From NCBI GenBank assembly GCA_023145965.1, contig JAGLDC010000060.1, positions 1 to 60,923 on the forward strand: a stretch of DNA of 60,923 nucleotides, in the 5' to 3' direction. Both the position numbers and the translations under genes were made by a program. Shown in pieces: positions 1 through 60,923 of this stretch (the stretch's first letter is position 1; each line of letters opens with the position of its first letter). This DNA comes from a bacterium (GTDB lineage Bacteria; UBP14; UBA6098). The notes below the pieces were generated by a model. It ran no database searches. It had not been told where the DNA came from and saw only the letters and a list, made by a program, of their open reading frames with translations.

Positions 1-120
1 TGGCGCGCAATTTGCCCCAAGCAAATTTCGTGACAGCGAATGGGAAGGGATGGGATTTTTGCGGTCGAAAATCATGTAATCAAATATTCCTTAATGACCG
101 TAGCAAAAATCGTGACAGCG
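1..120 (+). repeat. Palindromic intergenic element, copy A (left-truncated, long form)
   Basis: First of five related elements. Two stacked hairpin modules are visible: AATTTGC (9-15) pairs with GCAAATT (21-27), and GATTTTTGC (54-62) pairs with GCAAAAATC (103-111). Each module is followed by TCGTGACAGCG (28-38 and 110-120). The second loop holds an extra private pair GGTC/GACC (63-66 with 96-99). The usual left terminus ACGCTGGCGCG is missing because the window starts inside the element. It lies downstream of the cyclophilin gene and overlaps no supported gene. Confidence 0.85.
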
Positions 121-212
121 CCTTATTTATTGAGAAATAGCCTTGTAAGTAATCATTTCAGCAAATCTACTAGCGCCCTCTTTCCCTCTCTGAATCTTGT
201 AATCCAAATTTT

Positions 213-244
213 TTATAGGGATACCAATTATGGCATCCCTATAA
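213..244. other. Perfect 10-bp inverted repeat downstream of the cyclophilin operon
   Basis: TTATAGGGAT (213-222) is the exact reverse complement of ATCCCTATAA (235-244), with an inner CC/GG pair. It lies about 45 bp beyond the end of the cyclophilin gene, where a transcription terminator would be expected. There is no U-run on the 3' side in the gene's direction, so a classical intrinsic terminator is not shown. The rest of 121-288 shows nothing recognisable. Confidence 0.5.
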
Positions 245-288
245 CGAGTTACAATAAATAACTATTCAAGCGCCGAAAATTCCAAAGT

Positions 289-906
289 CTATTTAGAAAT
301 AACTTCAACCTTGAGAATATTAACCGGCTTCTGAGGCCTGCCCATACGGGGGTCGGCCATGGGAACATTTGCAATCTTATCTACAACATCGATGCCCTTA
401 ACGACAGAACCAAAAACCGTATATTGGCCGTCGAGATGCGTTGCAGCCTGATGGCAAATGAAAAATTGGCTTCCACTAGAAGCTTTCTGAGGATTAGCCT
501 GATCTCCGAGACGCGCTGTGGCTAATGCTCCTCTAACATGCTTAAGGTCGGTTATTTCAGCGGGAACTGTGTAGCCGGGACCTCCAGTGCCATCACCCTT
601 GGGGTCGCCACCTTGAATCATGAAACCCTTTATAATACGATGAAAAGTTAAATCATCGTAAAAACCTTCATTCGTTAGTTTGAGGAAATTCTCTGTGGTC
701 TTAGGAGCTTTGTCCGGCCTAAGTTCGATAACAATATCACCATAATCGGTTTTAAGTAATACCTGAGGTCTCGAAATCGCTTCTTCTGATTGTTTGTTTT
801 CTGCCATTTTTTGGCTATCTCCTTTTTTAATCATTTCTCCGCTTTCTTTGCATCCTGTGAAAATAATCATCATGCAAAGGATTGCAAATAGAATGTTTTT
901 TGTCAT
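289..906 (-). CDS. Lipoprotein peptidyl-prolyl cis-trans isomerase (cyclophilin type)
   Basis: 205 residues. It begins with a lipoprotein signal peptide whose lipobox is FTGC (Cys19), so it is expected to be lipid-anchored in the periplasm. A cyclophilin domain fills residues 48-203. It contains TTENF, the catalytic-arginine segment FHRIIKGFMIQGGDP and the later GSQFFI segment, all typical of PpiA/PpiB enzymes that isomerise Xaa-Pro bonds during protein folding. The start is fixed by a GGAGG ribosome binding site 5-6 nt upstream of ATG. It is the last gene of the four-gene operon led by the giant Ig-repeat gene, 15 bp after the TPR gene. That position fits a folding helper for exported proteins, which is inference. 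Confidence 0.93.
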   Translation of the reverse strand: MTKNILFAILCMMIIFTGCKESGEMIKKGDSQKMAENKQSEEAISRPQVLLKTDYGDIVIELRPDKAPKTTENFLKLTNEGFYDDLTFHRIIKGFMIQGGDPKGDGTGGPGYTVPAEITDLKHVRGALATARLGDQANPQKASSGSQFFICHQAATHLDGQYTVFGSVVKGIDVVDKIANVPMADPRMGRPQKPVNILKVEVISK

Positions 907-921
907 CTGTTTTCCTCCGTC

Positions 922-3495: not shown

Positions 3496-4294
3496 CTTTG
3501 TCCTTCTTCGGATAATATAATTGTGACAGTCCAATTCCAATCGTCGTCTCGCTTTTACCCCAATAACTAGCTTCTAAGGTTAGAACATAACCCTTGCCTA
3601 TGTCTATGTCAAGCCCAAGAATGGGCTTGGGGTATTGCCCTGGATCATTAAAGAGGCCGGACATTTTAGTGAATGGCGTGCCCGAGCTTGCGGAATATGC
3701 CTTGCGATATTTTCTTCCTGTAAGATATGTCCATTTGATACCGAGATACGGAACTGTTCTTCCAAATTGCCAACTTCCGTAAAGACTCATATCGAATTGC
3801 TGAAAACGATACGAATCAACATAGTGGAGGACACCTCCACCGAAAATAACCTCGTCTGAACTCACTGTTGTGAGCCAATTGGCTATAGCATATAAACGCA
3901 CCGGTTGCTTAGATATCCTTCGGCATCCGAAAGCGGGGTAATAATAGGCAAAATGCGTTTTAAGCCCCAAACCGAAAGCCAATTCTTGGCTTCCGTTAAA
4001 ATCTGTGTAAACGCTTGAAATAGAAGGGAAATTGAGATCCGCCATTCCTAGAATTGCATTGGCTTCGACAAATCTAAATAAGCCGAGCGAAGGCTTCAGC
4101 AAAATTCTCTGGGAGTTAATTTTATAGTCGGGGCCAATTTCATAGCGGATCAACCACTTCTCGTAGTCGAATTCCACAGAAAAGCCGAACCTTTCATAGG
4201 GTGTTTCTTTGGTTGGGTTGCCGACCATTATTGCCATGCCGGAGCCAGCAACTAGGACAAGCAGGGCGAAATATAGAATTATTTTGCGTTGCAT
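3443..4294 (-). CDS. Putative outer-membrane beta-barrel protein
   Basis: 283 residues. A signal peptide (residues 1-21, ending around SGMA) is followed by alternating aromatic/hydrophobic strands rich in Tyr, Phe and Gly (for example YGSWQFGRTVPYLGIKW and GYVLTLEASYWGK), the usual look of a small outer-membrane barrel. I recognise no specific family. The C terminus is charged (KKDKDDEDAP) and does not end in the canonical aromatic residue, so classical BamA recognition is not obvious. The start is supported by GGAGG about 6 nt upstream. It follows the giant gene by 22 bp and precedes the TPR gene, so it probably belongs to the same envelope assembly. Confidence 0.75.
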   Translation of the reverse strand: MQRKIILYFALLVLVAGSGMAIMVGNPTKETPYERFGFSVEFDYEKWLIRYEIGPDYKINSQRILLKPSLGLFRFVEANAILGMADLNFPSISSVYTDFNGSQELAFGLGLKTHFAYYYPAFGCRRISKQPVRLYAIANWLTTVSSDEVIFGGGVLHYVDSYRFQQFDMSLYGSWQFGRTVPYLGIKWTYLTGRKYRKAYSASSGTPFTKMSGLFNDPGQYPKPILGLDIDIGKGYVLTLEASYWGKSETTIGIGLSQLYYPKKDKDDEDAPALQGVGSTSSY

Positions 4295-4316
4295 CGGTGT
4301 TCCTCCGGTCTATGGC

Positions 4317-7300
4317 TTAGTCTTTTCTTCCAACGACAGCAGTATCTGGGACAACAATTGTCGCCTTAGGGATATCCGAACTTTCATCAGGTGGCATCGG
4401 ACGCCTTCGTGAAGAATAAGATATTGGCACGTTGATCGTTCCGCCGGTGCTAATTATTCTTGCCAAGATAACACCTGAGGCCGGCCAACTAGAATCCGCT
4501 GCTGCAGAAAGATCATAGGATGCTTCTCCAGTAATCCCTGTTGTGTGTGTAGCCGGGATCGAACCGAAGACATTTGCGCCGGTAACCTCTACATCCTCAC
4601 CACAGATGGGATTACCCCATTGATCGACAATCTTAACGCTAATCGGGAAGGATGTTCCATAGGGAACACTCTCTGGTGATGTTATTGAAGAGGCTTCGGA
4701 GTTTGGAGTATCGTGCTTAAGATAAATTGTATCCTTCTCGCTGACACCACCGACGGTTGCAGTAACTTCGGCTAATCCACCTGTATCGGAACTACAATAA
4801 TTATCAACGTTGACATTGCGCGCTGTATATCGGCCTATCGCATAACTTTCGTAGCACTCATTAGAAGTGAAAACTGGTGATTCGACTGTCCCCCAATTTG
4901 TAACTATCTGAACAACAGTGCTATCGCAAACCGGATGGCCGTTTTCGTCCCATACATCGACACGGACATCAGAGAAGCCCAGGGTATCGGCATAGGTCAG
5001 GCCCGGTAAAACAGTAATATCCACACTATCCGGTCTCCCACTGGAATAGAAGGCTACGGTATCGGTGCGCTCGCCCAACGTATCCCTTGTCTCTGCTATA
5101 ATTTGGACGATTCCATCGTTTCTCGGTGTGGCGGAATACCATGTGGCAAAAGAGAACCCGCTATCATTGGTTGTCGATGAGGTTGTTATCGCGCCCTCCT
5201 CGGTTCTGAACCAAACGGCTGTTCCCGGCGCGACGGGATTTCCGTATTCATCCGTTATAATCGCCATCACGTCGTTAACAACACCGTCAACATCCCAGCC
5301 ACGAACATTACAGTCATTTACTGAAACAGATACATAATAAGGTAGTCCGCTTCCAACAGTAATCCTCGGGGCGCGTGAGACGAATGTTCCGCCACCCGGC
5401 AATATAGCTGTAGCTTCCACTACAATAGAACCGGATTTATCACCTGAACGAAGAGTAACACTCGCTCTTCCGTTAATTGTGTAAACGGTATCGCTAAGCA
5501 TTCCTCCACCGGGGATGAGTTCCGGGTTAATGCTTCCACCGCCCGGGAAATCGACAATACGGAAAACGACCTCGCTACTATCGCGAACGGGATTGTCATA
5601 TTGGTCATAAATCACAGCCTCGAGGACAGATTGGTCAACCTCGCCTACTCCGCGAATATAGATGAAATCCCTGCTAACAGCAAGGTCTATAGTGTGTGGA
5701 GGTCCGGCGTAGAGGAGGAAGTCCTTACGCGCTGTTAGGGTGTTAACGCGTGCCGTGATGCCTGTAAGGCCTGCCTTTAACCCCGGCGCATAGGTTGTCT
5801 CATAATAACCAGTGTCATCCGTGGCAACCACAGGATCGGCAATGCTTCCCATACCCGCGCTATCGACTGAAATATATACGTAGGTTCCAAGTGCAACCGG
5901 ATTTCCTATTGCATCCGTTATAAAGCCTGAGACTCTGCTTGTTCTGCCACTTCCAACTGTAGAAGTGTCAGGATTAACGTTAATTGTAATCTCATCGGCT
6001 GCTCCGGCGGAATAGGTTATTGTAACCTTGGCGGTTTCCGACTGGCACACGGCCCATATCGTATCGATACATGTTGTATCTGCGGCGACGAGAGTCGCTG
6101 TAGCCACTCCGCTTTCGAGGGAATCGAGAGGTGAAACAAGGCCAAATAGCGCAGTGAAACGAACTGAGACGCCATCGGACACAGGATTCCCAGATGCATC
6201 GGTAACTATTGCCCGAACAATCGCTGTAGAAACGCCATCTGCTGGAAGACCCCGTGGTGCAACGGAGAGAGCGATATTGGCTGCTGTTGTCGGTTGATAA
6301 TAGATTGGAAGATAACCGGTAATGTCGCCGTCTGTAGCATTGAGGTATGTCGTTCCTATTCTGTTTGGCGCGGTGATCTTAAAGGATACTCTTCCAGAGT
6401 CGTTTGTTACGCCGATTAGTGGGACAACGGCACCCGTTTCCAATGTGAGGTTAATCGTAGCATCGGTAATACCGTTTGCGAAAGCATCTTCCACACGGAC
6501 GAAGCCAGCAAGACTATCTTCGCCGTTAGCTGAAAGTTCGACATAGTTGATTTGGTCATAGCTTCCACCTGCCAATGTATCGAAACGAATAACAGCCACA
6601 TTGCCCGGCTCGAAATAGACCGTGACAGTTTCCGAAGAGGCAATTGTGGTGCTATCGTTAATATCGCAATATGCATAGACCAGGGTGCTACCCACCTTTG
6701 TTGGAGCAAATAGGTTAATATTCGCATAACCGCTACTTGTAGTCGAGAAACTTGGATTTAGAAGAGCTAATATGCCATCCGGGGCGATTTGACCGAAGCG
6801 GACACCGGTGCCATCCGCTATTTCCATACCTGAAGAATCGGTAACGAATGCCGAGACTTCTGTGGAGGTAACACCATCGGCAGACAAGAATCTATCCATA
6901 ACGGATACATGTAATTCGTTCACATCGGTAGGCTGAAGCTCCACCTGAGTGATACCTGCAGCACCCTCGCAGCTTGCGCGAATTATTGCCACTCCGGCGT
7001 AGCGCCCGGCACGGAAGGGAACATCGACTCTACCGAGGGTATCGGTAACATCCGCTGCCCAGATAGTGCCATAGGTTGAAGGATCGACATTGAAGTTTAC
7101 AACGTAGCCTTCATCTACGTGGTTACTGGCCTGATCGAAAACCTCGCCAAAGATGCGCGTAGTATCAGTTTCATTTGCAATCAGCACGGTATCTGGCGCG
7201 GGATATAGTAGGATGTAATCGGGAGCACCCGATATAAAGCGCACTTCGACTGAATCTTCAATGCCTCCGCTACTCGCTATTAGAGTATCGTAACCGGTAT

Positions 7301-10300
7301 CTGTATAAGCTCTTATACGCGCTGTTGCAATACCGCCTGATGTAGTCGCGAATATAGGTGTGACACTTCCTAAGTTGAGTCCGGTGAAGCGCACCGAGGT
7401 TCCATTGGAAACAGGGGATCCAAGAACATCGAGCACAACAACAGAAACATCGGCCGTGCTAGAACCATCGGCCACTAGGGTTGGCGGAATCACTGTCATA
7501 GAAATCTCGTAAACCTCTGTGGAAATGAACTCGATAAGTATGTTTCCCGAAGCAGAACCCGACGAAACAGCCACATTCGACCAACCACTTGTAGTCCCTG
7601 CGATGAGTCTAACTGTAATTTGACCTGTTGTATCGGTGTATGCTGTGGGAACAATAATCCCAAGAGAGGCGCTGAAATTCACCGCTACACCAGCTCCGAC
7701 TGAATTACCGTATTGATCGAAAACGCTTACGGTTATCATCGAAGAATCGATGCCATTCGCTTCGATAATTGTGGTGTCGGCTGCTATATCGATAACCGCC
7801 GGAGGACCGGGAATAAAATCAACGTATTGCGTATCGACGGCCGTGCTGCCAGCATCGGCAACGACAACAATGGAATCTTGCGGCACAGTGCTGGATTTGA
7901 GTGTGCTTGTAGCTATGCCGCCGGAGGTGTAGGCCACGGCAGGATTAATTATGCCGTTTCCTGTGTTGAATCGGACTATCGAGCCATCGGAAACAGGAAG
8001 TCCTTCATCATCGAAGACGACAGCCGTCAGCGCTGCTGTTTCGGTTCCATCGGCAATGAGAACCGGCGGATCGACGACAAGCACCAGCGACTCAGCAGTG
8101 AGAGGTATGAAGTTGATAGTTGCATAATTAGTCGCACTACCGCAGGTTGCTGAGAGACTCGCGATGCCGTATTCGGTGCCAGAAACCACAACGGCGTGGG
8201 CGAGGCCGGTATCAGCCGGCCAATTATAACCGGTAGCACTAACAGGAGTTACGAAGCCTTTATTGATGGTAAAATCGACTGTAAGGCCGTTTGCGACTGG
8301 ATTGCCATAAGCGTCCCTAACACGAACGATTATGCTCTGAGTATCCGCACCGTCGGCTATCATATCTGTAGGTATTGGGTCGAAGTCTAGGATCGATGGT
8401 GGCCCTGCCACGAATTCGACATCGACAGTGTCCTTGAGTGAGTCCGTTACAGTTGCAATCACAGAATTCATTCCAACGATCACACCTGCCGTAAGAGTAG
8501 CGCGTGCTTGTCCGCCATCGGTATATGCTGTGCGCGGGCTTACTACACCACTACCGATAACATCGAAGAACACAGGCGTGCCATCTGAGACGGGTCGCGA
8601 GGTCCCAGCTGTATCGAGAACAGTAACTGTGATATTGCTCGTGCTGGTTCCATCGGCGTTGATTCTTATAGGATTGGCAACAATATCGACGAAGTTCGCC
8701 TCGATTTCGACAAAGTCGATGACCTTGCTCCCAACAGCATCGCCTGAACGTGCGGTTAGCAGAGCGGGGCCGGTCTCGGTGCTGGAAATAAATGTTCTAG
8801 CTCTTCCGGAATCATCTTCGACCACAGTCGGTGTAATAACCTCGCCGCGTGTTGTCTCCCATGTAACGCCGGTGCCAATATTCACCGGATTTCTGAATTC
8901 ATCCATAACGATGACTGCCTGTTGCCAACCGCTGCCATCTGCGGGAAGGCTATCCGGCGAGAGCGGATCAAATTCGATGACTGCCGGTTCGCCCGGCTCA
9001 TAGACTACTGATACAGTATCGCTAACCGAAACGCCGACATTCGCTGTAATACTATCTCTTCCGACATCAAGCGGAGCGATAAGCGTGGCTGTAGCCAATC
9101 CGCCTATAGTAAAGGTCACTCGTGGATTGATTATTCCGTTAGGTTCTGTATTCACATGGTCGAAATCGACGCGGGTTCCATCGGAAACTGGCATGCCTTC
9201 GGTATCGAAAACATAGGCTGTAATGTCGGCTGAACTTGTTCCATTACCGGGCATCCTCGCTGGAACTATATTGAGAACAATTTCATCGGCAACGAGTTCT
9301 TGGAAGCGAACCTGAATAAAGTCTATCGCATCGCCGCTGCGAACCGTAATAAGCGCCTCACCCGGTGTTGTTCCTGCTGTAAGACGCGTAGTGGCATAGC
9401 CTTCGGTATTAGTGAAGGCCGAAGCGCCTATTGTTCCAAGTGTTGTTGTAAAGCTAACGGCGCTTCCGGGTGTAACCGGATTTGAGTAGCGGTCAAAGAC
9501 CGAGCACGCGACAGCGGCATTGGAGGAGCCATCGGCGGAAATGACGCTATCTACCGAGTCAACCAAAAAAGCGACGAGTCTCGAGGGCGGTCCAGGCAGG
9601 AGTTGAACCGAAACCTTCCCGGAATCTGTATCGGCTCTTCCCCAAATATCTAACTCACCGGCCAGCGTGTCCGAGCGCAGATAAATAGTCGCAATACCTG
9701 AATCGGTATATGCTACGGAGGGTTCCACATTACCCAAGCTATCAGGATCGACCCAGAATTCCACTCTAGTATTATTTGAGACAAGGTGGCCACCGGCAGA
9801 ATAAACATAAGCTTGAATTTCCGTGCGATTGATACCATTCGCCAACATCTCGGTGGAATCAGCGAATAGCACCACGCTATTAACAGTCGTAGGGGCCATG
9901 TTGACTTGATGATAACCGGCAGCTGAACCGCAATGTGCTTGAATAACAGCGTCTCCGGGTTCTATATCAGATGTGAGTAAAGCGCGAGCAATCCCCGAAG
10001 TATCGGTGATGGCCGACTCTTCTATGATGCCACGGTTAGTAGAGAAGTTTACTGTCTCACCGGCGCGCATGCGGTTTCCGTATTGATCGAGGACACGGGC
10101 GAATATAAGAAGGTCATCCATACCATCGGCATCGATTGTATCGAGGGGAGCATGTGTAGAATCGCCCCAAACCTCTATAGTTGCTGCCGGGCCGGGAATC
10201 AGGAGAATACGCACGCTATCCGATCTAATTACAGACGGAGATACTGTTGTATCCTCGAATTCCCCGATAATCCATGCCTCACCGGTGCCAACATCTGTGC

Positions 10301-13300
10301 TGGAGGTAAAGGTGGTCAAGCAGTTCCCGCCGAGAGTTTGTTTCGGAGAAATAACTACACCACTAGCCACCGGGTTAGCGCGGAACGAAATCATAGTTCC
10401 GTCGGAGACGGGACTTCCGTCGTCATCGAATACCTGGCATGTAATTATTGACTGTTCCATACCATCGGCAACCAGCTGCACCGGGTTGGCTGTGAGCAAC
10501 AAGGTTCCAACATTGCTCTCACGAAGTTCGATCTCTGTGAGTTCAAATACGCCGGAGCTTTGCGCCCAAACACGTGCGATTCCGGGATCTGTGCCGGCAG
10601 TGAGAATTGTATATGCATCGCCAGCGGAATTAGTAAAGGTATTGGAAGGCGATATAGCGCCAAGGTCCGTGCCAAATTGGACGGCTTCGCCGGAAAGCAG
10701 CCTATTCCCAAAATCGTCGAGGAGAGTGGCTACTACGCGGGTTTGGTCTCTACCGTTGGCGGCAATGATGTTGGTATCCGGTTCGAGTTCGATGGATGCA
10801 AGATCGCCGGGTATAAGATCGATAAAGCCCTGGTCACCGTGACCAGAACCATCGCCGGCTGAAATCCAAACGCGTCCGCGTTGTGTTCCCGTGCGGAATG
10901 CAGTTGTTGCAATGCCGGTTGTAGTATAAGCAATCTGTGGTATAAGTGAACCAAGCGTATCTGAAGGACTCAGCAGTGTATCGCCCAGGGTATCCGGCCA
11001 CGAGGCAAAATAGACCGATGTGCCATCGGATACGGGATTCCCAAAAGTATCGAGAACAGTGGCTCTGCACGTTGTCTCGGAGTAACCATCGGCTTGTATT
11101 ATCCTATCCTCGATAGTCAATGAAATTGTTAGAGCCAAGGTTCCGCCAAAACGGACATTCGTTTCACCGCGAGCAGTGCCGGAACGCGCCACGATCCTTG
11201 CCATTCCAGCATCGAAACCACTGCGAAGGTTTATAATTACGATACCATCGCTGTTAGTCTCATCGGAGGTCGGGAAAATCTCTCCGAGAGATGTGGTCAG
11301 AGTAACAGTAACTCCCCCACGCACCGCGTTTCGATATCTATCAAACACCGCTACACTACAAATCGTTGTGCTGAAGCTATCGGCTGGGATTGAATCCGGA
11401 TTAGCCCAAACGGCAATACTATCTGGTTCGCCGGGGATAAGATAGCAAAGCGCTGTATCGGCAATATATGTTGTAGATGTATCGCCCACATAGGCGACAA
11501 TATTGCAATTTACAGCACGAGTGGATGCGGTGAAAGTTGCTGAAATGCGACCGCTATCTGTATAGACAATGGTCGGCGAGACGAAGCCTATATCACCTAA
11601 TGAATCTGGGATTGTGAATAGGCGCACCGGTGTGCCATCCGATATGGGATTGCCTGCAGAGTTACGCACCATTCCGCTCACAATAGCTGAGGAAAGGCCA
11701 TCTGCGACAAGCGTGTTAGGATCGATTGAAACGATAATAGTGGCATCGTCGAGGCTATCGGGGGTGAAATCGACGCGGCCTATACCGGTGGCATCACCTG
11801 AAGTGGCGGTGATAAGTGCCGTTCCCGGTGTAATACCGCTACGAAGTTGAGTTATCGCTACACCCGTGGTATCATCCACGGTGCCGGTTACTGCGAGGGT
11901 ATCGATGGAACCGAGGGTTGTAGAATAATTAACGAGATACCCGCCATCGACACGATTTCCTACGGCATCATACACATAGGTTCTAATTTCGGAGCGTTCT
12001 TCGCCATCCGCAGTGATTGCTGGGGGCACAGGTATAATATCTATGGATTGTGGAGACCCTGAAACAAAGTGGATAACCACGGAATCGGAGACATAGCCAC
12101 TATCGCCTTCGGTGCCGATATATGCAACTATGGTTGCAGTATCGATTTCGGTTGAACTACGAAGACTAGAAATCGCAACACCAGCGTTGGTGTAAGCCAC
12201 ACCGGGATAGACGAAGCCGACATCGGTTTTAAAGAATATTGGTGTCGAGTCGGAAACCGCCATCCCCAGATCGTCGAGAGCAATAGCTCTCAATTCCGAG
12301 CTTGAAATGCCATCTGCAGTTAAAGTCATGCTATCGGCAAACAGGTCGATAGAAGCAACATCGAGGGGAATAAGGCGAAGAATTTTTGTTCCAACTGGCC
12401 CGGCGGTTGTAGTAACGGTGATAACAGCGGTTCCGGCGTTGGTTCCTGCAAGGAAGCGGAAATTGGTCGATTCATCGAGAATAGTATAACCAAATGATGG
12501 AATAATCGACCCAAGTGTTGGATCGGGCGATATAGTAATATCCATCCTATTGCCGGATTCGACTGGATTGCCGTATCTATCGTAAACGAATACCCTAATA
12601 ATACAGGAATCTCTGCCATCGGCGATGAGAATATCCCGCACGGTAGAGCCTGTGTCGGAATCGTAAGCCTCGACTACTATTGTAAAAGGATCCCCCGGAG
12701 TAAATTGGACCTCGACGGTGTCATAGAGGAAGTTTGTGGAGTCAACCGCAACAGAACAGATAACTGAAGCTATACCGGTTTGAGTTTCCGAATAGAGGGC
12801 AACTGTGGCCTCTCCAACAGAAGTCGTTGCGATGTCGTCTATTGTTCCAAAATCGGCACCGGTGCCATCAACCGACCGGAAATCGACGCGAGTGCCATCA
12901 CGAACAGGTTGTCCCAGTATATTGAGGACTCTAGCTGTTATAGTAGAAAAGGTTTCGCCATCGGCGGCTATTCTTCGAGGATCAGCACGGAGAGTGAGGT
13001 ATTCTGGCGGTGCGGCTTCAAAGCGAACCTGCGCAACTCCAACGCGCCCACCGGCTGTAACATCCACACGAGCTATCGAGGGCGCATCCGGGGCAGTTAG
13101 TATGGCTTGAGCCGAACCAGAACCATCGGTGAAGGTATTTGTCGGTTGGATAGTGCCCGCCGAAGTCGCGAGATTAACGGTTATGCCTGAGCTGAGCGGA
13201 TTACCGTATCTATCGAATAATTGAGCGTGAACGACTGTGTATGCCTCGCCATCGGCTGGAAGAACTGTATCTTCAGCCCAAACAGATATACTGTCCACCT

Positions 13301-16300
13301 CACCCGGAATTAGGTCGAGGAAAGTATTATCACATATCGAAGTGATTGTATCGACTGTGCAACACGCTTGAATCCAAACTCTGCCTGTGCTATCGCTGCT
13401 GAATATCTGAATCGCGGCTTCGCCATCGGTTGTGAATGCTATAATGGGTGAAAGTGAGACAAGCTGGGTATCTTCAGGTGCACCTGCAATTGTATCTACT
13501 GAGAAATAAACCGGAGTGCCATTGGTAACCGGGCTTCCAAGGCTATCTGTAATCACGGCGCGCGCAAAAGTAAACGACCTACCATCTGCGACAAGTTCAC
13601 TGGTGTCGGTGGTCAGGCTAACATAAGCAACCTCGGCGTTGGTGAGAGTTATATATGTTTCGCCCCATGCATCACCGGAGTTAGCACGAACACGCGCCTC
13701 ACCGGGTATTCTTCCGGATGTAAATTCTGCTACTACAAGGCCTTCGGAATTAGTTACATCTAAAATGGGATCGACAGTTCCGCGAGTAACCTCGAATCGG
13801 ACTGTATCACCCGATCCAACCGAGTTACCAAACCTGTCGAAGACAAGCACCGAACAGATACTTGTCGAGAAACTGTCGGCGGGGATCGAGGTCGGCGTCG
13901 CCCAAATCGAGCACATATCCGCCGAGCCGGGGATAAGATCGATAATAACGCTGTCGATTGCGGAGGCATTGGCCCTCGCGATAATATAGGCCGAACCTAT
14001 ACTGTCTTTCGAGTTAAAGGTTGTTCGGAAGGCTCCGCTATCTGTATATGCAGTGCTTGGAGTGATGAAGCCCATAGAGAGAGGATGCACCTCGAAGGAA
14101 ACGGGCGAACCATCGGAAACAGGCATACCGTCGCCATCGACGACCTGACCGGTAATCTCGGCGGTCGAGCGACCATCTGCAACAACCTCGCCGGGATCGA
14201 CATAGACATAGAGGTCCTGAGCGACTGTGTTATAGAAAGTGACTGTAGCTTGGGCTAAAGCCTCACCGGTATTCGCCCAAATGATAGCCGTTCCGGGGGT
14301 GGTGCCGGCGTATAGGTTAACCGATGTTACGCCAGAGCTATCGGTAAAGTTAGCCGTGTCGATCTCTCCGAGTGACGTTGTGAATCTAACTTTTATTCCC
14401 GTTCGGACATGGTTGCCATATTCATCTTTAACGATGACAGTGACCGGCGTGAAAGTATCGCCATCGGCTGGGATATCGTAAGGCGCGGGTGTAAATTCAA
14501 TAATCGCTGGCTCCCCGGGGATAAATTCAATATTGGTGGTGCCTGTTACGCTATCGCCGGCATCACCGGTGATGGTGGCGAGACAAACTGTGGTGCCAGA
14601 ACGAAGCGTCGTGGTGGCCTCACCCGATATGGTATAAGCCACTCCGGGGAAGATGAATCCGGAATCTGTGCTAAAGCGGACGGGCGTATTATCCGGCACG
14701 CCGACGCCCATAGAGTCTAAAACAATAGCGCGAATGGTTGTCGTGGTGATTCCATCGGCAACGATGCGAACATCATCAGAGGAAAGGAATATCTCACTAG
14801 CTATTATCGGAGAGAAATTCAGCTCGGTGTAATCGGTGAAGCCGCCTGCGGTGCCCATAATAGTTGTGTGACCCGAGACATCGGAATATATTTCCACCGA
14901 GACATTGCCGGTGCTGTCGGTATAGCCACGGTCGAACACGAAAGTTCCAAGCGGCGAGGCCGAGAAGATAACGAGTTCGCCGATAATCGGATTACCATAT
15001 TCATCGTAAACATAAGCCCAGATTGTGGCGCGCGATTCGCCATCGGCGAATATAACAGTATCCGCCGAATCAACTTCAACATCGATGCCCGCCGGTTCCC
15101 CTGCGATAAAATCTACAATAGCGCTATCCCTAAGACCGAAAACCTCTCCGAATACCATTGCCTTGGTTGTGTAAGTAGGCGAGCGCCACCAAATCCTCGC
15201 ATCGCCAGAGAGGGTAGTAGCAAAAGGTGTCATTGGAAGGCTATCTGTGCCAATTGCGCCCGTGGAATCCATTATTCTATTCTGGAAATTCACTAGAATT
15301 CCATCCGAGACAGGCATGGCCGAAGAATCCATAACCATAGCGATTATTTCGCAAGAGTCCACACCATTGGCCGTAACACGGTTAGGTGTTGCCGAAATAG
15401 CAATAAAGGCAGCCGTCGTCTCGACTTGCTCGATATAAATCCATGCATTCGCGAGGTCGATATTAGCATCAATCCTCACCTGTCCGACATAATCGCTGGC
15501 AGAGTATTCTGTGGTAGCTTCACCGAGAGAATCAGTGATAACCGGCGATATTATAGAACCTTCACTCGATGCAAATTCCACTTGCCTCCCGGCTCCAAGT
15601 GGATTACCATACTCATCGGTGCAGGTAGCTGTAATCGTGCTTCGCGCGCGCGGATCCGCGATAAGAGTATCCGGATCTGCTTCGAGAGAAATATAATGCG
15701 CCACACCGGCATCGAAGCGGATAAGGAGCGTATCAGCAATCCTTCCGGAATCTGCGGAGGCGACGACAGTGTCGATACCTGCATCCGAGCCGCTGATCAA
15801 AATCGTATTCACAAATCCGCCAACGGTGAATTCAAAAATACTCGAGAAGCCGCCGAGACGGCTTGCAAAATCGATGCGCGTGCCATCGGAAACAGGGCGG
15901 CCTACTCCATCTACACAGTAAGCTGTGAGGCCGAGGCCGGAGCCATCAATCGACATGTGGGTACTATCGGCAGTGAGAATCAATGTATGGGCTTCAGAGC
16001 CGATAAGCTCGATATTCATCGCAGCAACAGGCGCAAAACCCGATGAAGCTTGAATACGCGCGGTGCCAATAATTACATCTGAGGTAAATGTGGTTGTAGC
16101 AATTCCCAGAGTATCGGTGGTAGTAGGTGAAACAATGGAGCCTAGGTCGGTCGAGAATTCGACTATCTCGCCCTCCTCGGCTTCATTCCCATAAGCATCA
16201 AAGCATTCGGCTGTAACAGATGTAGTGCTGAAGCCATCTGCGGGGAGAGTATCATCAACCGAACTAAGAACAATGTTCGCAACCGCGCCGGGGAGAATGC

Positions 16301-19722: not shown

Positions 19723-19822
19723 ACGCTGGCGCGAGCGGTGAAGGGCGGCTCAGGGGGATTTTTGCGCAAGATAATCGAAGTGTTAGCACAAAGTCGCGGA
19801 ATAGCAAAAATCGTGACAGCGT
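19723..19822 (+). repeat. Palindromic intergenic element, copy B (short form)
   Basis: A complete short-form copy of 100 bp. The termini ACGCTG and CAGCGT are inverted repeats. The main stem is GATTTTTGC (19757-19765) with GCAAAAATC (19804-19812), closed by the TCGTGACAGCG tail. It lacks the first AATTTGC hairpin module found in copies A, C and D. It sits between the end of the FemAB-like gene and the promoter of the giant-gene operon. Confidence 0.85.
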
Positions 19823-41977: not shown

Positions 41978-41981
41978 TAGA

Positions 41982-51259: not shown

Positions 51260-51262
51260 GAA

Positions 51263-53797: not shown

Positions 53798-53841
53798 AGG
53801 TTATCCCATTTGAAAATCCCAATACCAAATTGATTAGAATT

Positions 53842-53870
53842 ATATTAGTGCATCAAGATAACTATTGCAA
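53842..53870 (-). promoter_or_regulatory. Promoter of the UshA-like gene
   Basis: On the minus strand TTGCAA (53870-53865), 17-nt spacer, TAATAT (53847-53842). The start would be near 53835, giving a leader of about 38 nt. The -10 is identical to that of the giant-gene promoter. Confidence 0.55.
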
Positions 53871-53949
53871 GAGCAAAAAAAGTGGCAACCAATTAACCTA
53901 ATTATCTTGAAATCAATATAAAATATAAAAAATCGGGGGATGATTAAGG

Positions 53950-54093
53950 ACGCTGGCGCGGGAGAAGGGGCGATGGCACGGAATTTGCCCAAAACGCAAA
54001 TTCCGTGACAACGCAGGTGTTCGAAGGGATTTTTGCGCTGGTAAATAAAACTCCTAATACAAAACTTACGAAAAAGCAAAAATCGTGACAGCG
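53950..54093 (+). repeat. Palindromic intergenic element, copy C (complete long form)
   Basis: Complete two-module copy of 144 bp. Left end ACGCTGGCGCG. First hairpin CACGGAATTTGC (53977-53988) with GCAAATTCCGTG (53996-54007), a perfect 12-bp stem with a 7-nt loop. Second hairpin GATTTTTGC (54028-54036) with GCAAAAATC (54076-54084), with a private GTAA/TTAC pair in the loop. Right end CGTGACAGCG. Confidence 0.9.
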
Positions 54094-54276
54094 GCCATCA
54101 ACGGTAAAGGACATTTGTGTCCAACATTTCTTGATTCACTCACTAGTGTTATACCCAGCAAACCTAACAAAAAAAGATGCCGACCCGGGGGAAATCGCAT
54201 TAGTTGTTAATTCTCGGGTGAATAGCCTGAAAAGCCAGCGCTATCGATCATGCGGACACATGTAGATAACCTCGCT

Positions 54277-57200
54277 CTATTTCAAAAGCACTGCACGCGA
54301 AGTGCTCACCATACTTGGATTTATATAACGAACTAAATAAATCCCTGAGGCGCAAGAAAATCCGTCATCTGAGATGCCATCCCATATAATAGAAGTCTCA
54401 GCAAGTTTTTTCGCGACGAGCCTTCCTGATATATCATATATCTCGATATGAGACTCACTCGATATATCGCCTTTAAGCTCGATGTGCAAAGCCGAGTTGA
54501 AGGGATTTGGAAAAACTTGAAGGGTAATATCCTTGGGTAGATCGAGACACGCCTCTATCGAAGTAGTAAAATCCGTTCCGGGACAGTAAAGCGTTATATC
54601 ATCGAGAAAAATACCTTCGTTTTCGTCATCGGCATCGCTGGTAAAACGAAAATAAACCTCAATACTATCACCCGGCGCAAAGGGCAGGTTTTCAAGGCTA
54701 TATCTATACTCCGACCAACCAATAATGAAACTCAGTAAAGCACCACCGCTACCAATATAGTCAAGCTCCACTGTATCTGCGGAACCGGCAATCTCGATAT
54801 GAAGACCATCGGAACCATAATTAGGAAACTGTGCATGCGCCCAAAATCTTAACTCTGCTTTATCTCCGATAACAAATTTAGTTGTTCTAAGAAGATCATC
54901 TAAATTGGAAACATAGGCACCTATAGAGAGATGGCCGCAATACCAAGCTAAAGAGCCGCTGTGTGCACGCCTTGTGCTACGATGCCAGTAGGTTGTCGGG
55001 TTCAACACAAACGGAAACTCCGAAGCTTCGACATCCGTAGTAAACCCAAGTGGCATCGTTGCCAGATAAAGTGTTTCCGGAGGATTAGGCGTCCATTGTG
55101 TGACAAGCGGAACAATGGGTTTAGGACTGACACCAGAAGCCCACGAGACATCAAAAACATTAATATGGGCTGTATCACCCGGAAGATAATGGTATGATGT
55201 AGTTACCGGCGAACCAACTATGTCGAGTTCACCCCCCGGGCAATTTACTGAAACTGTTGCCGTCGAAGCCCAACCTGTGCCACTATTTACCCAATCAATA
55301 AGAAGGTTCGCGCTCTCGCCGGGATCGAGAATCGAATCGACACCACTGAGAGCCACTCCTCCAAATTTCATTCGTGCAGTATTGATCTCAATCGAAATGG
55401 GAAATCCTAACTCACCCATAGAGGAAGAGATTCCAGGATTTATTATCAAGGAAGTATCGCCAATAATATCGGTTGGAATAGAAAATGTAGCCGAGAAAAA
55501 TACGCTATCGCCAACGGCGAGAGTCTCCGGTGGTTCCACAGTCGAAAGCGGCCCAACGAAATTTGCAGAAGGAGACCAAAAAAGCCCGCTTATAAACGAA
55601 TCAAACTCGCCCAGTCCAAAAACAACCTCGACAGTATCGCCAGCATCGGCACGAAAATCGTGTAAACCATAGGAATCCGAATAATCCCAGCGGAAATAAC
55701 CCTCACCTGTCGGAGTAGTAATAGTATCAATTGCCATACCCTCGCTTCCATACCGAGCAACTAGAAAAATAGGAGGAGAACCACCGGCGATAGATAAACG
55801 CGCAAAACCCGACGGATCCGAAATCGAGTCATCGAGAAGACCATAATTATCGTAAGCGGAAACTACTGCACCCATCACAGGCATACCATAAGGAGTTTCT
55901 ACGCCTACACCAACATCGGCGCCCTCCAAATCATAGCTAATTTCTATGGGCGAATATCCGGTAATAGCTCCTGTAGCCGGATCGCCAATAATATTGACCT
56001 GATAAATAACCCAGCGCCATATATTTTCCCATCGAGCAAAAGGCACATATCGCGCTTTGGCTATATCCAGCCCTGAACCGAGTGTGAAATTACCATCAAA
56101 AATCTCCTCCCAAAAGGCTTTGTCTAAAACCTCAGAGTATCCGCGCCCAACATTTCCAGGGGAACCCCAACCATAACGACTGTTGCCGATAAAGGCAACA
56201 CCACCTCCACTCGGATTATTCACAAAATGCTCGGCAAAACAATCTTTATCAAAAGCAGCCGGCCAGCAACCTATGGAAAACAATATCGAAGGTCTAGCAT
56301 AATTAACCAGTAAGTCCATCTCGGTGAGATAAATACAGCTTCCATGATCTACACATAAAACCGCAGAGTTGGCATGGCCAACATGGTTTACAAGGTTTGG
56401 ACCTGTGTTCAAACTATCGAAAGCGCTTTCAGCGTTGCCACCCATTGTGCTATATACCTTTCCAAAATCAAAATAGTCCGGGAAAACATTCGCTATAAGA
56501 TCATCATTAAACTCACCGCCATCGGTGTAGGGATCATCCCACATAACTTGCCCGATCATAAGTCCGCTTTTCGCAAAATCCTCTGAAGGAATCGATTCGT
56601 AAGTAATTAGCTTATCAATTAAACCCAGTAACTCCTCAGAAGAACTGAGCGAGAACCTCCCAACATGAACATCCGGAAACATATCAATCGAGTCCTCGAG
56701 CTCGCCATAGATAATATCGCCATCGAAATTCCAGTTGCCATCGAGATCGCTGTAATAAAGATCTGCACGAATTTCGTTCTCGTCATCATAGAAATCAGCC
56801 TCAGAATCCATAGCATAAACTGTTCTAGCTGGCACAAGATTGGTATCACCAATTAAGAGGACATAAACAATACCCAGTTCCTCATATAATTCGATTATCG
56901 AATTCCTTATCTTCTCTGCATTATCGACTCCCGCGAAGCTAGAATAAATATCGGAAATGATAAGCGTTGTATCGCGAAGCCCACAGCTTCGCCTCAAATC
57001 CAAAAGCTCAGAAGTATATCCAGCGAGTGAATAGGGGGTTATAACTGCCCAGTCGTAAGCCGAAGAATCAACATGATAAGTGTAACTATTTATCTCCTCA
57101 GGATTCAAAACAAGGCCGGCAACTGCTTTTTTCCACAACCTATCCCCAAAAGGCGTTCTGCGTGATGGAGCAATATAAACAGAGGACTCGTATTCCAACC

Positions 57201-57696
57201 TCACCCTCGCACTTGCTAAATACTCGCATATCCCCGCTGAAGGATTCCATCTTATTGGAGAATAACTTATCGAGGCCAAAGAAAAACCAGAAAGATTGCC
57301 ACGAAATGCATCTATCATAGGATTCTCAGGGAACCAGCGATCCTCGATATAATAAGATTCATCACAAGGAATAATCCCTCGAGTTGGACAGGATAAAATT
57401 GCCGGTGGTTGAGCCGGAAAAGGCATGCCCTCTGCTAAATACTCCCACCTTTCCGATTCAATGCTCGCCCGAATAAGTCCCATGCCCTGAGGCAAAAGCA
57501 CAATAACCGCCTCAGCTAAAACCTGAGGCGAACCAGACTCCCCATAAATTATACATTCATCAGAATATACCCGCACAAAATCGCCCGTTTCAACTAAGAA
57601 CTCCGAACGCGAATTCTCTATCGAAAATTCATACACACCAGCAGAAATGGGTGAAACTAAAATTAACACAATAAACGAAAGTAAGATTATGAACAC
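54277..57696 (-). CDS. Gingipain-like C25 cysteine protease with FlgD-like C-terminal sorting domain
   Basis: 1139 residues: signal peptide (1-19), an N-terminal propeptide-like region (to about 205), the C25 catalytic domain (about 215-560), Ig-like regions, a jelly-roll-like domain (about 880-1050) and a FlgD-Ig sorting domain (about 1060-1139: FPNPFNS, IYDISGRLV, WDGISDDG, ASGIYLVRY, LLK). The catalytic dyad is visible as His441 in NHVGHANS and Cys477 in FSIGCWPAAFD. It is predicted to be exported as a surface or secreted protease; the sortase PorU of type IX systems is also a C25 protein, but PorU has no sorting domain of its own. The start is GTG at 57696, with TTGGAG about 5 nt upstream. 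Confidence 0.92.
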   Translation of the reverse strand: MFIILLSFIVLILVSPISAGVYEFSIENSRSEFLVETGDFVRVYSDECIIYGESGSPQVLAEAVIVLLPQGMGLIRASIESERWEYLAEGMPFPAQPPAILSCPTRGIIPCDESYYIEDRWFPENPMIDAFRGNLSGFSLASISYSPIRWNPSAGICEYLASARVRLEYESSVYIAPSRRTPFGDRLWKKAVAGLVLNPEEINSYTYHVDSSAYDWAVITPYSLAGYTSELLDLRRSCGLRDTTLIISDIYSSFAGVDNAEKIRNSIIELYEELGIVYVLLIGDTNLVPARTVYAMDSEADFYDDENEIRADLYYSDLDGNWNFDGDIIYGELEDSIDMFPDVHVGRFSLSSSEELLGLIDKLITYESIPSEDFAKSGLMIGQVMWDDPYTDGGEFNDDLIANVFPDYFDFGKVYSTMGGNAESAFDSLNTGPNLVNHVGHANSAVLCVDHGSCIYLTEMDLLVNYARPSILFSIGCWPAAFDKDCFAEHFVNNPSGGGVAFIGNSRYGWGSPGNVGRGYSEVLDKAFWEEIFDGNFTLGSGLDIAKARYVPFARWENIWRWVIYQVNIIGDPATGAITGYSPIEISYDLEGADVGVGVETPYGMPVMGAVVSAYDNYGLLDDSISDPSGFARLSIAGGSPPIFLVARYGSEGMAIDTITTPTGEGYFRWDYSDSYGLHDFRADAGDTVEVVFGLGEFDSFISGLFWSPSANFVGPLSTVEPPETLAVGDSVFFSATFSIPTDIIGDTSLIINPGISSSMGELGFPISIEINTARMKFGGVALSGVDSILDPGESANLLIDWVNSGTGWASTATVSVNCPGGELDIVGSPVTTSYHYLPGDTAHINVFDVSWASGVSPKPIVPLVTQWTPNPPETLYLATMPLGFTTDVEASEFPFVLNPTTYWHRSTRRAHSGSLAWYCGHLSIGAYVSNLDDLLRTTKFVIGDKAELRFWAHAQFPNYGSDGLHIEIAGSADTVELDYIGSGGALLSFIIGWSEYRYSLENLPFAPGDSIEVYFRFTSDADDENEGIFLDDITLYCPGTDFTTSIEACLDLPKDITLQVFPNPFNSALHIELKGDISSESHIEIYDISGRLVAKKLAETSIIWDGISDDGFSCASGIYLVRYINPSMVSTSRAVLLK

Positions 57697-57727
57697 TTTA
57701 TCTCCAACTTTTAAAAAATATCTGTGT

Positions 57728-57756
57728 ATTATATGTATTAATAAAGACTATTTCCA
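57728..57756 (-). promoter_or_regulatory. Promoter of the gingipain-like protease gene
   Basis: On the minus strand TGGAAA (57756-57751), 17-nt spacer, TATAAT (57733-57728). The -10 is perfect. The predicted leader is about 25 nt. Confidence 0.55.
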
Positions 57757-57883
57757 GTTGGCAATAACCAAAAACCCATAAACTTGCTATCATCAGAATG
57801 TAACTGAAGGCAATGGGCTCGACCTGAAAAAATAATAACCGTTTTAAGTCTGCACTATACTCAACAATAACGGCCTGCCAAAA

Positions 57884-58026
57884 GGCGCTGGCGCGTGCAA
57901 GGTGGCGATGGCGCAAAATTTGCCCGAACTGCAAATTTCGTGACAGAGCGGGGGGTTTGGGGTTTTTGCACAAAATATGAGAATACAAATATAATATCCC
58001 TGAATAGCAAAAACCGTGACAGCGCC
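57884..58026 (+). repeat. Palindromic intergenic element, copy D (complete long form)
   Basis: Complete two-module copy of 143 bp. The termini GGCGCTG (57884-57890) and CAGCGCC (58020-58026) are perfect 7-bp inverted repeats. First hairpin AAATTTGC (57916-57923) with GCAAATTT (57931-57938), 7-nt loop. Second hairpin GGTTTTTGC (57961-57969) with GCAAAAACC (58007-58015). Both arms of the second stem carry the same A-T to G-C change relative to the other copies. Confidence 0.9.
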
Positions 58027-58050
58027 AAAATAGAGATTATTAGTTTAGAT

Positions 58051-60480
58051 TTATAACGGTGGTATAGGCTGATCTACACCGGAATAACCTATAACTTTCC
58101 CATCGAATGTGCTACAGAATATCGAATCATTGATCACATCAATGGTCACTGCACCAGAGATATCCGTGCGAAGTATATCTGTGCCACATTGTCCCAAACG
58201 GGAAATAGTAGCAGGTGATGGATGTCCGAAACGATTAGCTCCAACAGAGATAATCGAAACAACAGGTGTTAATGAGGCAATAAAATCATCACAGGTGCTA
58301 TACTTGCTTCCATGATGTGGAACTTTTAGAATGTCAATGTCCGTTAATGCTCCTCTAAGGGCGCTTTCGGTCGGGAAACCAATATCACCGGTGAATAAAA
58401 ATTGCACCTCCCCAAGGGATAATTCAAAAACTATCGAAGCCTCATTGACATTGACTAAAAGCGAGCCAGAAGAGGAAACAACTGTTGAATCCGGCCAAAT
58501 TATGTTAATCTCTGGGAAACCGGGCAAGGTATCACCAGCATTCACGATTAAAACCTCTGTGCCAGTCGAATCTAAGTTTTGTAAAAATTTTTTATATAGG
58601 TTGTTTGTTAGCGACCTATGTGGCACGAAAACCGAATTATAACTGAAGCTTTCGAGAAGATCATACAATCCACCTAAATGGTCAGAATCAGGGTGCGTAA
58701 GAAGCGCCGCATCTATCCTAGAAATCCCCTTTGATTCGAGAAATGGCCTTACAGAAAATGAGGCATTACCCGGTAATCCGCCATCTACCAATAGCATCCT
58801 TCCGTCTTTGAATTCGATTAGGGCGCAATCCCCCTGCCCTATATCGAAAAATATTACATGTAAATCGCTCTTTGTCTTTGTTTGCGAAAGAGTAAACATC
58901 CCGAAAGTTGCGCATGAAGCAGCGAAAAGAAAAACGAATACGGCTAGCAAACCCTTAATACGCTTTCTTAAAAGCAGTGGAACAACAACTATAACTGCAA
59001 AAAATATAAACACTGAAAATATCGGTGGCTTTGGGAAAGGAAGATAAGATACCTTTGTTCCTGCAAAAAACGAAGCGGTATAGATAAGGTATTTCAGCAC
59101 AAGCTTATCCGCTGCTAAAAACATTATTGCCCCAGTTTTCCAAAATAATGAAAAAAGCGAAGCTAATATTCCATATCCGACCACTATGCCCACAAAAGGG
59201 ACTACAAATAGATTTGCTAAAGGCGATATCGTTTGAAGGCGGTGAAAATAGAAGGCAATAAACGGCGCTGTGCCGATACTCGCTGCTATCGAAACTGTCA
59301 GAGCACCGATAATATACTTCCGAATAAAACCTGACCTAATACCTTGAGAGGGTATCCACTCATCGAAGAAGGGCATTAGATAAGCAATGGCAAGAGTCGC
59401 GCCAAAGCTCAGTTGGAAGCCAATATCGAAAAGCCATATTGGTCTGATAATCAGCAATATCGTCCCAGCAGCACCTATAGAATTAAGCAGATTTGATGGC
59501 CTTCGAAATACAGTTCCAAGAAGGATTATCGAGAACATTAATGAAGCACGTAAAACAGACGGTCTCCCCCCTACTACACCAGCATATATCATCAATCCAA
59601 TAATGCAGATTCCCGCAGCTAAATGCCTCGGCATCCGGAATGTTGTGCCCAAAAGAAACCAAAGTATCCAGGCAATGATCCCTACATGCAAACCACTAAC
59701 AGCAAGTATATGAACCGTTCCAGAATCGGCAAAAGCAGAGCGTACCGATTGTGGAAGCTCTTTGCCTTTTCCTAGCAAAAGGCCGCGCAATAGCGCTGCT
59801 TCATCTCCATCGAGCCCAAGTTCGATAGTTGTTTCGACATGGCGACATATTGCATCGACAACCCTTCCATAAAGGCTTTCTTTACCCTTTTCGACAAATT
59901 TAATCTTGCTATCACCACGAACAAATGTTATAGTCCTTATACCTTTGAGAGATAGCGATTTTTTAAAATCGAAGGCTTCGGGATTGCTAGCTGATTTTGG
60001 TTCCTCTAACACACACTGTAATGCAATACAGTCATTAAAACAAACCTGCTTTGCGCGATAGAGGTAAATTCTTGTTTTTCCATATGCTGGATATATTTTT
60101 CCATTTAAGTCAACTGAATCTGCCTTTAAATCGAATTTTTGTCTATCGCCTTCTCTATTGATTTCATCGGCCACTCGGCCGAAAAGTTGAACCTCCATTC
60201 CAACAAGATTGCTTACATCTTCAGGCCTAACCTGCCTTGAGTTTGTATATCTAAAGGCTCCAAATGCAAATATTGATATAAGGGAAAAGCCTATCAACAA
60301 AGGCTTATTAACCTCTTTTATGAATATTATTAGTAGTGCCGTTAAAAAAACGAAGGTAAAAAAAGCGATAAGATGATGCCATATAAAACATTGCGGTAGA
60401 ATAGCGGCAAGGGCCATGCCACAAGCCAGCGCGAAAAAAGCAAAAAGCAATGGGGTGGGGTGTGAAATGCGCTCTTTCAC
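58051..60480 (-). CDS. comEC: DNA-uptake channel protein ComEC/Rec2
   Basis: 809 residues in the normal three-part layout: N-terminal membrane helices with an OB-like domain (about 70-200), the Competence channel domain with about nine helices (TVHILAVSGLHVGIIAW, GGRPSVLRASLM, FDIGFQLSFGATLAIAYL), and a C-terminal metallo-beta-lactamase domain (about 550-809) with FFDIGQGDCALI, the metal site LTHPDSDHLGG, FTGDI and VPHHGS. ComEC carries single-stranded DNA across the inner membrane during natural transformation. The enzyme residues are intact, so degradation of the non-transported strand by this domain is plausible. The start is GTG, overlapping the upstream stop as GTGA. Confidence 0.96.
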   Translation of the reverse strand: MKERISHPTPLLFAFFALACGMALAAILPQCFIWHHLIAFFTFVFLTALLIIFIKEVNKPLLIGFSLISIFAFGAFRYTNSRQVRPEDVSNLVGMEVQLFGRVADEINREGDRQKFDLKADSVDLNGKIYPAYGKTRIYLYRAKQVCFNDCIALQCVLEEPKSASNPEAFDFKKSLSLKGIRTITFVRGDSKIKFVEKGKESLYGRVVDAICRHVETTIELGLDGDEAALLRGLLLGKGKELPQSVRSAFADSGTVHILAVSGLHVGIIAWILWFLLGTTFRMPRHLAAGICIIGLMIYAGVVGGRPSVLRASLMFSIILLGTVFRRPSNLLNSIGAAGTILLIIRPIWLFDIGFQLSFGATLAIAYLMPFFDEWIPSQGIRSGFIRKYIIGALTVSIAASIGTAPFIAFYFHRLQTISPLANLFVVPFVGIVVGYGILASLFSLFWKTGAIMFLAADKLVLKYLIYTASFFAGTKVSYLPFPKPPIFSVFIFFAVIVVVPLLLRKRIKGLLAVFVFLFAASCATFGMFTLSQTKTKSDLHVIFFDIGQGDCALIEFKDGRMLLVDGGLPGNASFSVRPFLESKGISRIDAALLTHPDSDHLGGLYDLLESFSYNSVFVPHRSLTNNLYKKFLQNLDSTGTEVLIVNAGDTLPGFPEINIIWPDSTVVSSSGSLLVNVNEASIVFELSLGEVQFLFTGDIGFPTESALRGALTDIDILKVPHHGSKYSTCDDFIASLTPVVSIISVGANRFGHPSPATISRLGQCGTDILRTDISGAVTIDVINDSIFCSTFDGKVIGYSGVDQPIPPL

Positions 60481-60731
60481 GATAGCCCGATGAGCTCCCT
60501 TATTTCGGGTAAAACAAACACCTTTTCTATTTTTTCGGCTTCAAAGAATAGCTCTTTTGCCAAAAGCTCTATTTTCGATGCTATCGATAGGTGTTTATTA
60601 ATGAGAATAACCTTTCCATCTCGGATACGGCATAATCCGCCAGAGATAGTTCCCATTTTTTCATAACGAATCTCTATACCGATTTTCTCGGTAAGCTCTT
60701 CAAGTTCCTTTAGGGTTTGTTCGCGTGTCAT
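60477..60731 (-). CDS. Small conserved-type protein upstream of comEC
   Basis: 84 residues, soluble. It has an N-terminal coiled helix (LKELEELTEKIGIEI), then a strand pair with GGLCRIRDGKVILINK and a C-terminal helix ending LPEIRELIGL. I recall proteins of this shape upstream of unrelated genes in Bacteroidetes and other phyla, but I cannot name the family. There is no ribosome binding site, and the predicted transcription start coincides with the ATG, so the mRNA may be leaderless. It shares GTGA with comEC. Confidence 0.82.
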   Translation of the reverse strand: MTREQTLKELEELTEKIGIEIRYEKMGTISGGLCRIRDGKVILINKHLSIASKIELLAKELFFEAEKIEKVFVLPEIRELIGLS

Positions 60732-60737
60732 ACTTAA

Positions 60738-60766
60738 TTTATAAGCGATTTTAAGCTAATTCGCAA
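60738..60766 (-). promoter_or_regulatory. Promoter of the small protein-comEC operon (leaderless prediction)
   Basis: On the minus strand TTGCGA (60766-60761), 17-nt spacer, TATAAA (60743-60738). The expected start is about 60731-60732, the first base of the coding sequence. Confidence 0.55.
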
Positions 60767-60809
60767 TGTGTTTTAATAATTAACTTCACATGAATATCCC
60801 CACCCTCCC

Positions 60810-60914
60810 ACGCTGTCACGATTTTTGCTAATTCATTGATTTGTTTTTGGTATTCGAATTTTTTTTGTGGGCAAAAATCCCTTCTATTCCCTTCCTTTCC
60901 GCCCGCGCCAGCGT
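60810..60914 (-). repeat. Palindromic intergenic element, copy E (short form, opposite orientation)
   Basis: Short-form copy of 105 bp, read on the minus strand. The termini ACGCTGG and CAGCGT are inverted. The stem arms are GATTTTTGC/GCAAAAATC at 60871-60879 and 60820-60828, with a private AATTC/GAATT pair in the loop. It lies 9 bp from the window end and upstream of the comEC-operon promoter. Confidence 0.85.
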
Positions 60915-60923
60915 CCCCTCCAA

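Follow-up and report, generated by a model that had tools for sequence, protein, structure and literature searches.

The BOX and RUP repeats of pneumococcus are modular, intergenic and non-autonomous; their stems are conserved, and an inner module may be present or absent. The ends of IS200/IS605 elements and the MITEs derived from them are irregular single-strand hairpins recognised by HUH transposases. REPs are defined by a GTAG/CGTC tag and lie near 3' ends, where neighbouring genes converge or run in the same direction (PMC3733652). The bottom strand of attC sites, when folded, is stabilised by purine mismatches (PMC6393395), and integrons were reported with IntegronFinder 2.0 to be extremely rare in Firmicutes (PMC9024848).

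The window analysed here is the whole 60,923-nucleotide stretch of contig JAGLDC010000060.1 from a UBP14 bacterium. It carries five copies of a repeat belonging to a real, previously unnamed family of foldable DNA repeats of 100–150 bases, of which this genome holds about 60. The family resembles the REP/REPIN–RAYT systems in being short, intergenic, palindromic with imperfect stems and high in copy number (59 copies), with lineage-specific subfamilies and no target duplication, and in that the genome encodes a Y1 HUH transposase in single copy. It differs from REPs in length (100–150 nt, against 20–40 nt), in the absence of the GTAG/CGTC tag from its foot (the flank profiles of 89 copies contain no unpaired GTAG or CGTC at the palindrome end) and in having no bias to gene 3' ends or against divergent gene pairs. 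Like BOX and RUP it is modular and non-autonomous, with an optional inner module, but its sequence is different, the module copies the design of the outer hairpin and it is not known to have an autonomous partner. It shares irregular single-strand hairpins with the IS200/IS605 ends and their MITEs, but has no left/right end pair, recognised cleavage-site tetranucleotide or internal gene. The purine mismatch on its folding strand parallels that of the attC bottom strand (PMC6393395), and attC-like sites in Bacillota carry its core hairpin as their tip; the UBP14 copies, however, have no R and L boxes, arrays, cassettes or integrase. The attC boxes RYYYAAC ... GTTRRRY are absent from the UBP14 copies, and boxes resembling them are present in the Bacillota arrays. 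Having neither the REP tag nor the attC boxes and integrase, the family is filed with neither REPs nor attC sites. The copies in the window are as follows.

1–120, + strand: copy A, long form, outer 5' arm missing through the contig start; inner hairpin arms 1–15 / 21–38; second stem 54–62 / 103–111; outer 3' arm CGTGACAGCG at 111–120.
19724–19821, + strand: copy B, short form, 85.1 bits with the covariance model; outer arms 19724–19733 / 19812–19821; G-rich spacer 19734–19756; second stem 19757–19765 / 19804–19812, enclosing the loop.
53951–54093, + strand: copy C, long form, 75.1 bits with the covariance model; outer arms 53951–53960 / 54084–54093; inner hairpin 53971–53988 / 53996–54013; second stem 54028–54036 / 54076–54084.
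57886–58024, + strand: copy D, long form, 56.3 bits with the covariance model; outer arms 57886–57895 / 58015–58024; inner hairpin 57906–57923 / 57931–57948; second stem GGTTTTTGC at 57961–57969 / GCAAAAACC at 58007–58015.
60811–60913, − strand: copy E, short form, 84.5 bits with the covariance model; outer 5' arm 60904–60913, outer 3' arm 60811–60820; second stem 60871–60879 / 60820–60828.

All five copies listed in the first-pass annotation were recovered, with offsets of 1–2 bases. They fall into a short form (B and E; about 100 nt) and a long form with an additional inner hairpin (A, C and D; about 140 nt). One end of the contig is occupied by copy A and the other by copy E, in keeping with assembly-breaking repeats. 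Copy A does not have the terminus CGCTGGCGCG attributed to it, since the contig starts inside the element; the 'TGGCGCG' of this copy is the start of the inner hairpin and not the element terminus. The compensatory changes described for the two stems were read correctly: the second stem GATTTTTGC/GCAAAAATC is replaced by GGTTTTTGC/GCAAAAACC in D, and for the first stem C has GAATTTGC/GCAAATTC where D has AAATTTGC/GCAAATTT. Immediately beyond the terminus, B and E have an A–T pair and D a G–C pair, as claimed, and in C these bases are A.G and unpaired. Private loop pairings had also been proposed for A, C and E; that of A is clear (GGTC/GACC), while those of C and E extend over only 4–5 bp. The folding z-scores of 90 loops were moderately negative (mean −0.89, with 32% below −1.64), and in view of this modest signal loop structure was rejected as a conserved part of the element.

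Between and beside copies C, D and E lie two − strand genes: 54277–57696 encodes a C25 peptidase bearing a Por-type secretion tail, and 58051–60480 a ComEC-type competence protein. Positions 4317–19484 (− strand) hold an open reading frame of 5055 amino acids, very large for this genome.

Allowing three mismatches at most, the 2.52 Mb genome contains 73 occurrences of the 18-nucleotide right-arm motif GCAAAAATCGTGACAGCG and two of its reversed control, which puts the repeat far beyond chance; related 3' arms belonging to inner hairpins are among the 73, and the covariance-model count is the better one for elements. The model was built from 28 short copies and scored no more than 150 candidates in each genome. 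Within this limit it gave 59 copies in the genome of the window (G000) and, among relatives of the UBP14/UBA6098 lineage, 94 in G003 (B46_G16, Guaymas), 18 in G002 (UBP14 UBA6098), eight in G001 (SpSt-1142) and three in G004; 12 other genomes of the class, scored in the same way, gave none. Copies beyond the original five, for which a covariance-model search had been suggested, are thus present both in this genome and in four relatives. In a wider genome scan, copies were also found in Coatesbacteria RBG_13_66_14, a Deltaproteobacteria MAG (CSMAG_2661) and the Bacillota genome SKS1.bin35, the Coatesbacteria and Deltaproteobacteria occurrences being single. In these genomes the hairpin is minimal and consists of GGCTGGCRCG directly joined to TTTTTGC, a loop and GCAAAAAYCGTGACAGCC. 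A sample of 386 genomes, taken from the neighbourhood of the lineage and from further away, contained this minimal form in its exact sequence and with a short loop just once, in G008, which belongs to another family (f2) of the window's class. No Rfam family reached its gathering threshold in the window, and copies C and D gave no match up to E = 1; the collections of viral contigs, phages and plasmids searched contained no match to the family. Singletons in the phylum of SKS1.bin35 but outside its class were mostly coding sequence, many with one common conserved coding motif, and a wider spread within that phylum was rejected; one of them is a true attC-like site (L276).

The outer helix of the element, CGCTGGCGCG / CGTGACAGCG or GGCTGGCGCG / CGTGACAGCC, measures about 10 bp and carries a single invariant G.A mismatch as well as an R.T pair. 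Between the stems, the 5' side is a G-rich unpaired strand of 24–28 nt which may hold a second hairpin of like design. The second stem, of 8–9 bp (RTTTTTGC/GCAAAAAY), closes an A-rich loop of 35–41 nt. Among 85 distinct UBP14-type copies, double-sided changes occur at 12 of the 21 pairs, several of them within a single genome. The covariation score of these copies was 0.204, compared with 0.099 ± 0.006 after shuffling (none of 500 shuffles reached the observed score) and at most 0.068 for slid-structure controls; relatedness is kept in the slid control and not removed by the shuffle control. The covariation seen in five copies is therefore strong over the larger set, and the selection on a fold proposed in the first-pass annotation is well supported by it and by the 59 genomic copies. 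The terminal pair is C–G in 44 copies and G–C in 32, and the base of the second stem is A–T in 53 and G–C in 27. A second stem that is replaced in part yet still pairs occurs in some copies, for example as TTCGTGC/GCACGAA. Going outward from the conserved core, complementarity of the successive pairs is seen in 76, 46 and 34% of copies, against 39, 27 and 23% after shuffling. This excess, extending 1–3 positions beyond the core, could have arisen by compensatory change in situ or by insertion of the element into small palindromes.

The G.A mismatch was present in all 96 parsed copies and the adjoining pair was always C–G, while the third position was G.T in 81 copies, A–T in 15 and never G–C. 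The search pattern tolerated two mismatches in the arm bearing the mismatch, so the invariance was not imposed by the search, although it would have passed over very degenerate copies. In 17 of 21 cases the inner hairpin, of like design, also has the G.A mismatch. In the complement, C.T takes the place of the mismatch and A.C that of the wobble, and the element strand therefore folds better. When folded as DNA, the element strand was more stable than its complement in all four complete copies of the window (−18.6/−13.0, −28.2/−23.5, −24.0/−20.8 and −10.9/−9.1 kcal/mol, respectively). A lagging-strand bias as judged from GC skew was inconsistent, the skew being positive for 14 of 46 copies in G000, seven of 14 in G002 and 14 of 22 in G003.

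Gene context was counted in the stretches around 53 copies using crude ORF calls. Neighbouring gene pairs were co-directional in 22 cases, convergent in seven and divergent in nine, and start-facing and stop-facing flanks were equally common (about 46 starts and 45 ends of genes point towards an element). Overlaps of copies with ORFs mostly concern short or dubious ORFs, the copies being otherwise intergenic. The subfamilies are lineage-specific, and G002 has near-identical copies (up to 99%) at unrelated loci. At four gene pairs syntenic between G000 and G002, the element was found only in G000 at three and in both genomes at one; conversely, a G002 copy beside a metal-hydrolase gene has none at the matching place in G000. 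At the one site common to G000 and G002 (L345:5870–6090, G002:C21), a full element and a minimal core lie side by side. A base-exact empty site was not found among the relatives, which are too diverged. The flanks of 89 copies showed no excess of direct repeats of 3–9 bp over chance, contrary to what a DNA-transposon MITE with target duplication would show.

In G002 the repeat unit runs about 100 nt further downstream at several loci (L296, L301, L338, L341 and L346), the extension consisting of a second hairpin and a (TTTTACC)n tract, often with a GTAG-tagged hairpin upstream; the mobile unit of this genome may be larger than the hairpin. The GTAG/RTAG hairpin lying about 45 nt upstream of many G002 and G003 copies is a separate repeat. 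In G003 (L116, L124, L135 and L368–L375) a REP-like hairpin, RTAGCCCACGACTTCAGTCGTGGGTTA, lies upstream of several elements. This RTAG hairpin was rejected as a part of the element and counted as a neighbour, since it also occurs alone.

The minimal hairpin is present in SKS1.bin35 (G061) and in seven of the nine other genomes of its small Bacillota class, in several of which it recurs about every 1 kb in a single orientation. Cassette arrays were noted at L242, L244, L245 and L247 (genomes G067–G075 and G061). Each hairpin is the tip of a palindrome of 120–430 nt framed by boxes (for example GCCTAACGCATT-GGGGCTAAATG and CATTTAGCCCGTT-GTTAGGC), which we take to resemble the R and L boxes of attC, and the genes between the sites include toxin–antitoxin-like ORFs recognised by eye. 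The hairpin was present in 51 of 52 framed sites, the exception being a chance box match, so that the minimal hairpin is the tip of the attC-like sites of these arrays in 51 of 51 cases. One array, in G068, has a tyrosine recombinase at its end in the orientation expected of intI; the element strand of this array lies on the side of the bottom strand. The recombinase matches TIGR02249 in two pieces with 231 bits (cut-off 265) and has no counterpart of profile positions ~178–238. In one Bacillota genome, L180:18287–18385 (− strand) gave an unrelated guanidine-I riboswitch-like match just under the Rfam threshold.

We give roughly an even chance to the reading that the family consists of dispersed intergenic REP/MITE-like palindromes acting as strand-specific single-stranded DNA hairpins. 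An unlikely alternative is that the copies are transcribed structured non-coding RNAs or UTR elements which spread early and are kept for their function, the fold with its conserved G.A and G.U being bound by a protein or regulating a neighbouring gene. The strong covariation, the constancy of the spacer and loop lengths among diverged copies, the stable folding of the element strand as RNA and the intergenic placement all agree with such a role. A selected RNA fold should, however, tolerate G.U and not A.C, and mismatches in the stems are about equally rare (12 A.C, eight G.T); only at the loop-closing pair, where pairing is least important, does G.T prevail (nine, against one A.C). Without a G.T excess, these few mismatch events lean towards a fold acting as DNA and not RNA. 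The RNA reading is further opposed by the lack of any preference for orientation or position relative to genes, by a copy number that ranges from 3 to 94 within one family, by varying presence and absence at syntenic sites and by the lack of an Rfam match. That the palindromes are passive, being terminators or recombination by-products alike through descent of a short hairpin, is highly improbable and already disfavoured: intergenic placement and the terminator-like sequence adjoining some copies would suit it, but about 36 nucleotides with a fixed mismatch are conserved across phyla, orientation bias is absent and the form is rare in the wide genome sample (one of 386).

The other two alternatives concern the enzyme. 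A specific version of the single-strand DNA reading, which by itself we consider unlikely, is a REP/REPIN system mobilised by a RAYT-like, single-copy Y1 transposase found throughout the family. This protein (Y1_Tnp, about 133–138 amino acids) is encoded once per genome of the family and twice in G002, and its HUH and Tyr motifs are readable in the sequence. The gene is an IS200-like, vertically inherited and partly syntenic one (L085, G000:C80; L294–L297; L301), adjoining the same hydrolase or histidine-ammonia-lyase-like gene in several genomes. An element lies about 60 bp downstream of it in G003 (a degenerate copy) and about 830 bp away in G002, and the small GTAG/RTAG-tagged hairpins upstream of many copies in these two genomes point in the same direction; no element was seen close to the gene in G000, G001 and G004. 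Against this version, the gene is also found in class-mates without elements and is absent from Bacillota genomes in which the core is common (G068 and G071), the foot of the element has no GTAG tag, the tagged hairpin of G003 often occurs without the element, and the best HMM match is IS200 and not the RAYT model, below the cut-off. The Y1 transposase is thus a weak candidate for the mobilising enzyme. More doubtful still is the view that the copies are degenerate, solitary attC-like sites, left behind by an integron that is lost or distant and moved by a tyrosine recombinase of the integron type acting at secondary sites. Such an origin would account for the core shared with the Bacillota sites, and G008, of the window's own class, combines minimal hairpins with a full integron integrase (L212, G008:C58:419–1360; 365 bits on TIGR02249). 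The UBP14 copies nevertheless have no R and L boxes, their flanks pair for only 1–3 bp past the core, they are scattered over both strands and not arrayed, and the element-rich genomes have no integrase above the cut-off (265 bits; best match in G000–G004, 75 bits).

Between RNA, a cruciform and fold-dependent mobility, all left open in the first-pass annotation, the data lean to mobile single-stranded DNA hairpins, through the lack of a G.T excess, the lineage-specific subfamilies, the presence/absence differences at syntenic sites and the attC-like core. The fold, its conservation, the rise in copy number and the differing occupancy of sites are observed, whereas recognition of the single strand and movement by an enzyme are inferred. 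Under this reading, replication or DNA uptake would expose the element strand and allow it to fold, the purine mismatch favouring it over the complement. A hairpin-specific enzyme, of the HUH Y1 transposase or tyrosine recombinase type, would recognise the helix and its mismatch in the single strand and move or copy the element without target duplication. Copies losing the fold would cease to be substrates, so that changes in one arm would be compensated in the other. In the Bacillota class the minimal hairpin would have become the tip, or variable terminal structure, of integron-like attC sites, for which folding of single-stranded DNA is likewise decisive. That a purine-mismatch single-stranded hairpin module is common to the mobile palindromes of UBP14 and the attC tips of Bacillota, whose arrays have the recombinase without the profile part between positions ~180 and 239, is put forward tentatively, as a possibility on the less probable side.

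The family adds a well defined mobile palindrome, supported by covariation, from an uncultured lineage. Its compact hairpin with a fixed purine mismatch provides a concrete test substrate for enzymes acting on single-stranded DNA hairpins, of relevance to the origin of attC. If the shared module is real, integron sites and REP-like palindromes would be connected through it, and it would indicate a hairpin-recognising enzyme. The tips of integron recombination sites are usually regarded as variable filler; the shared core suggests that such tips can be a mobile, conserved module.
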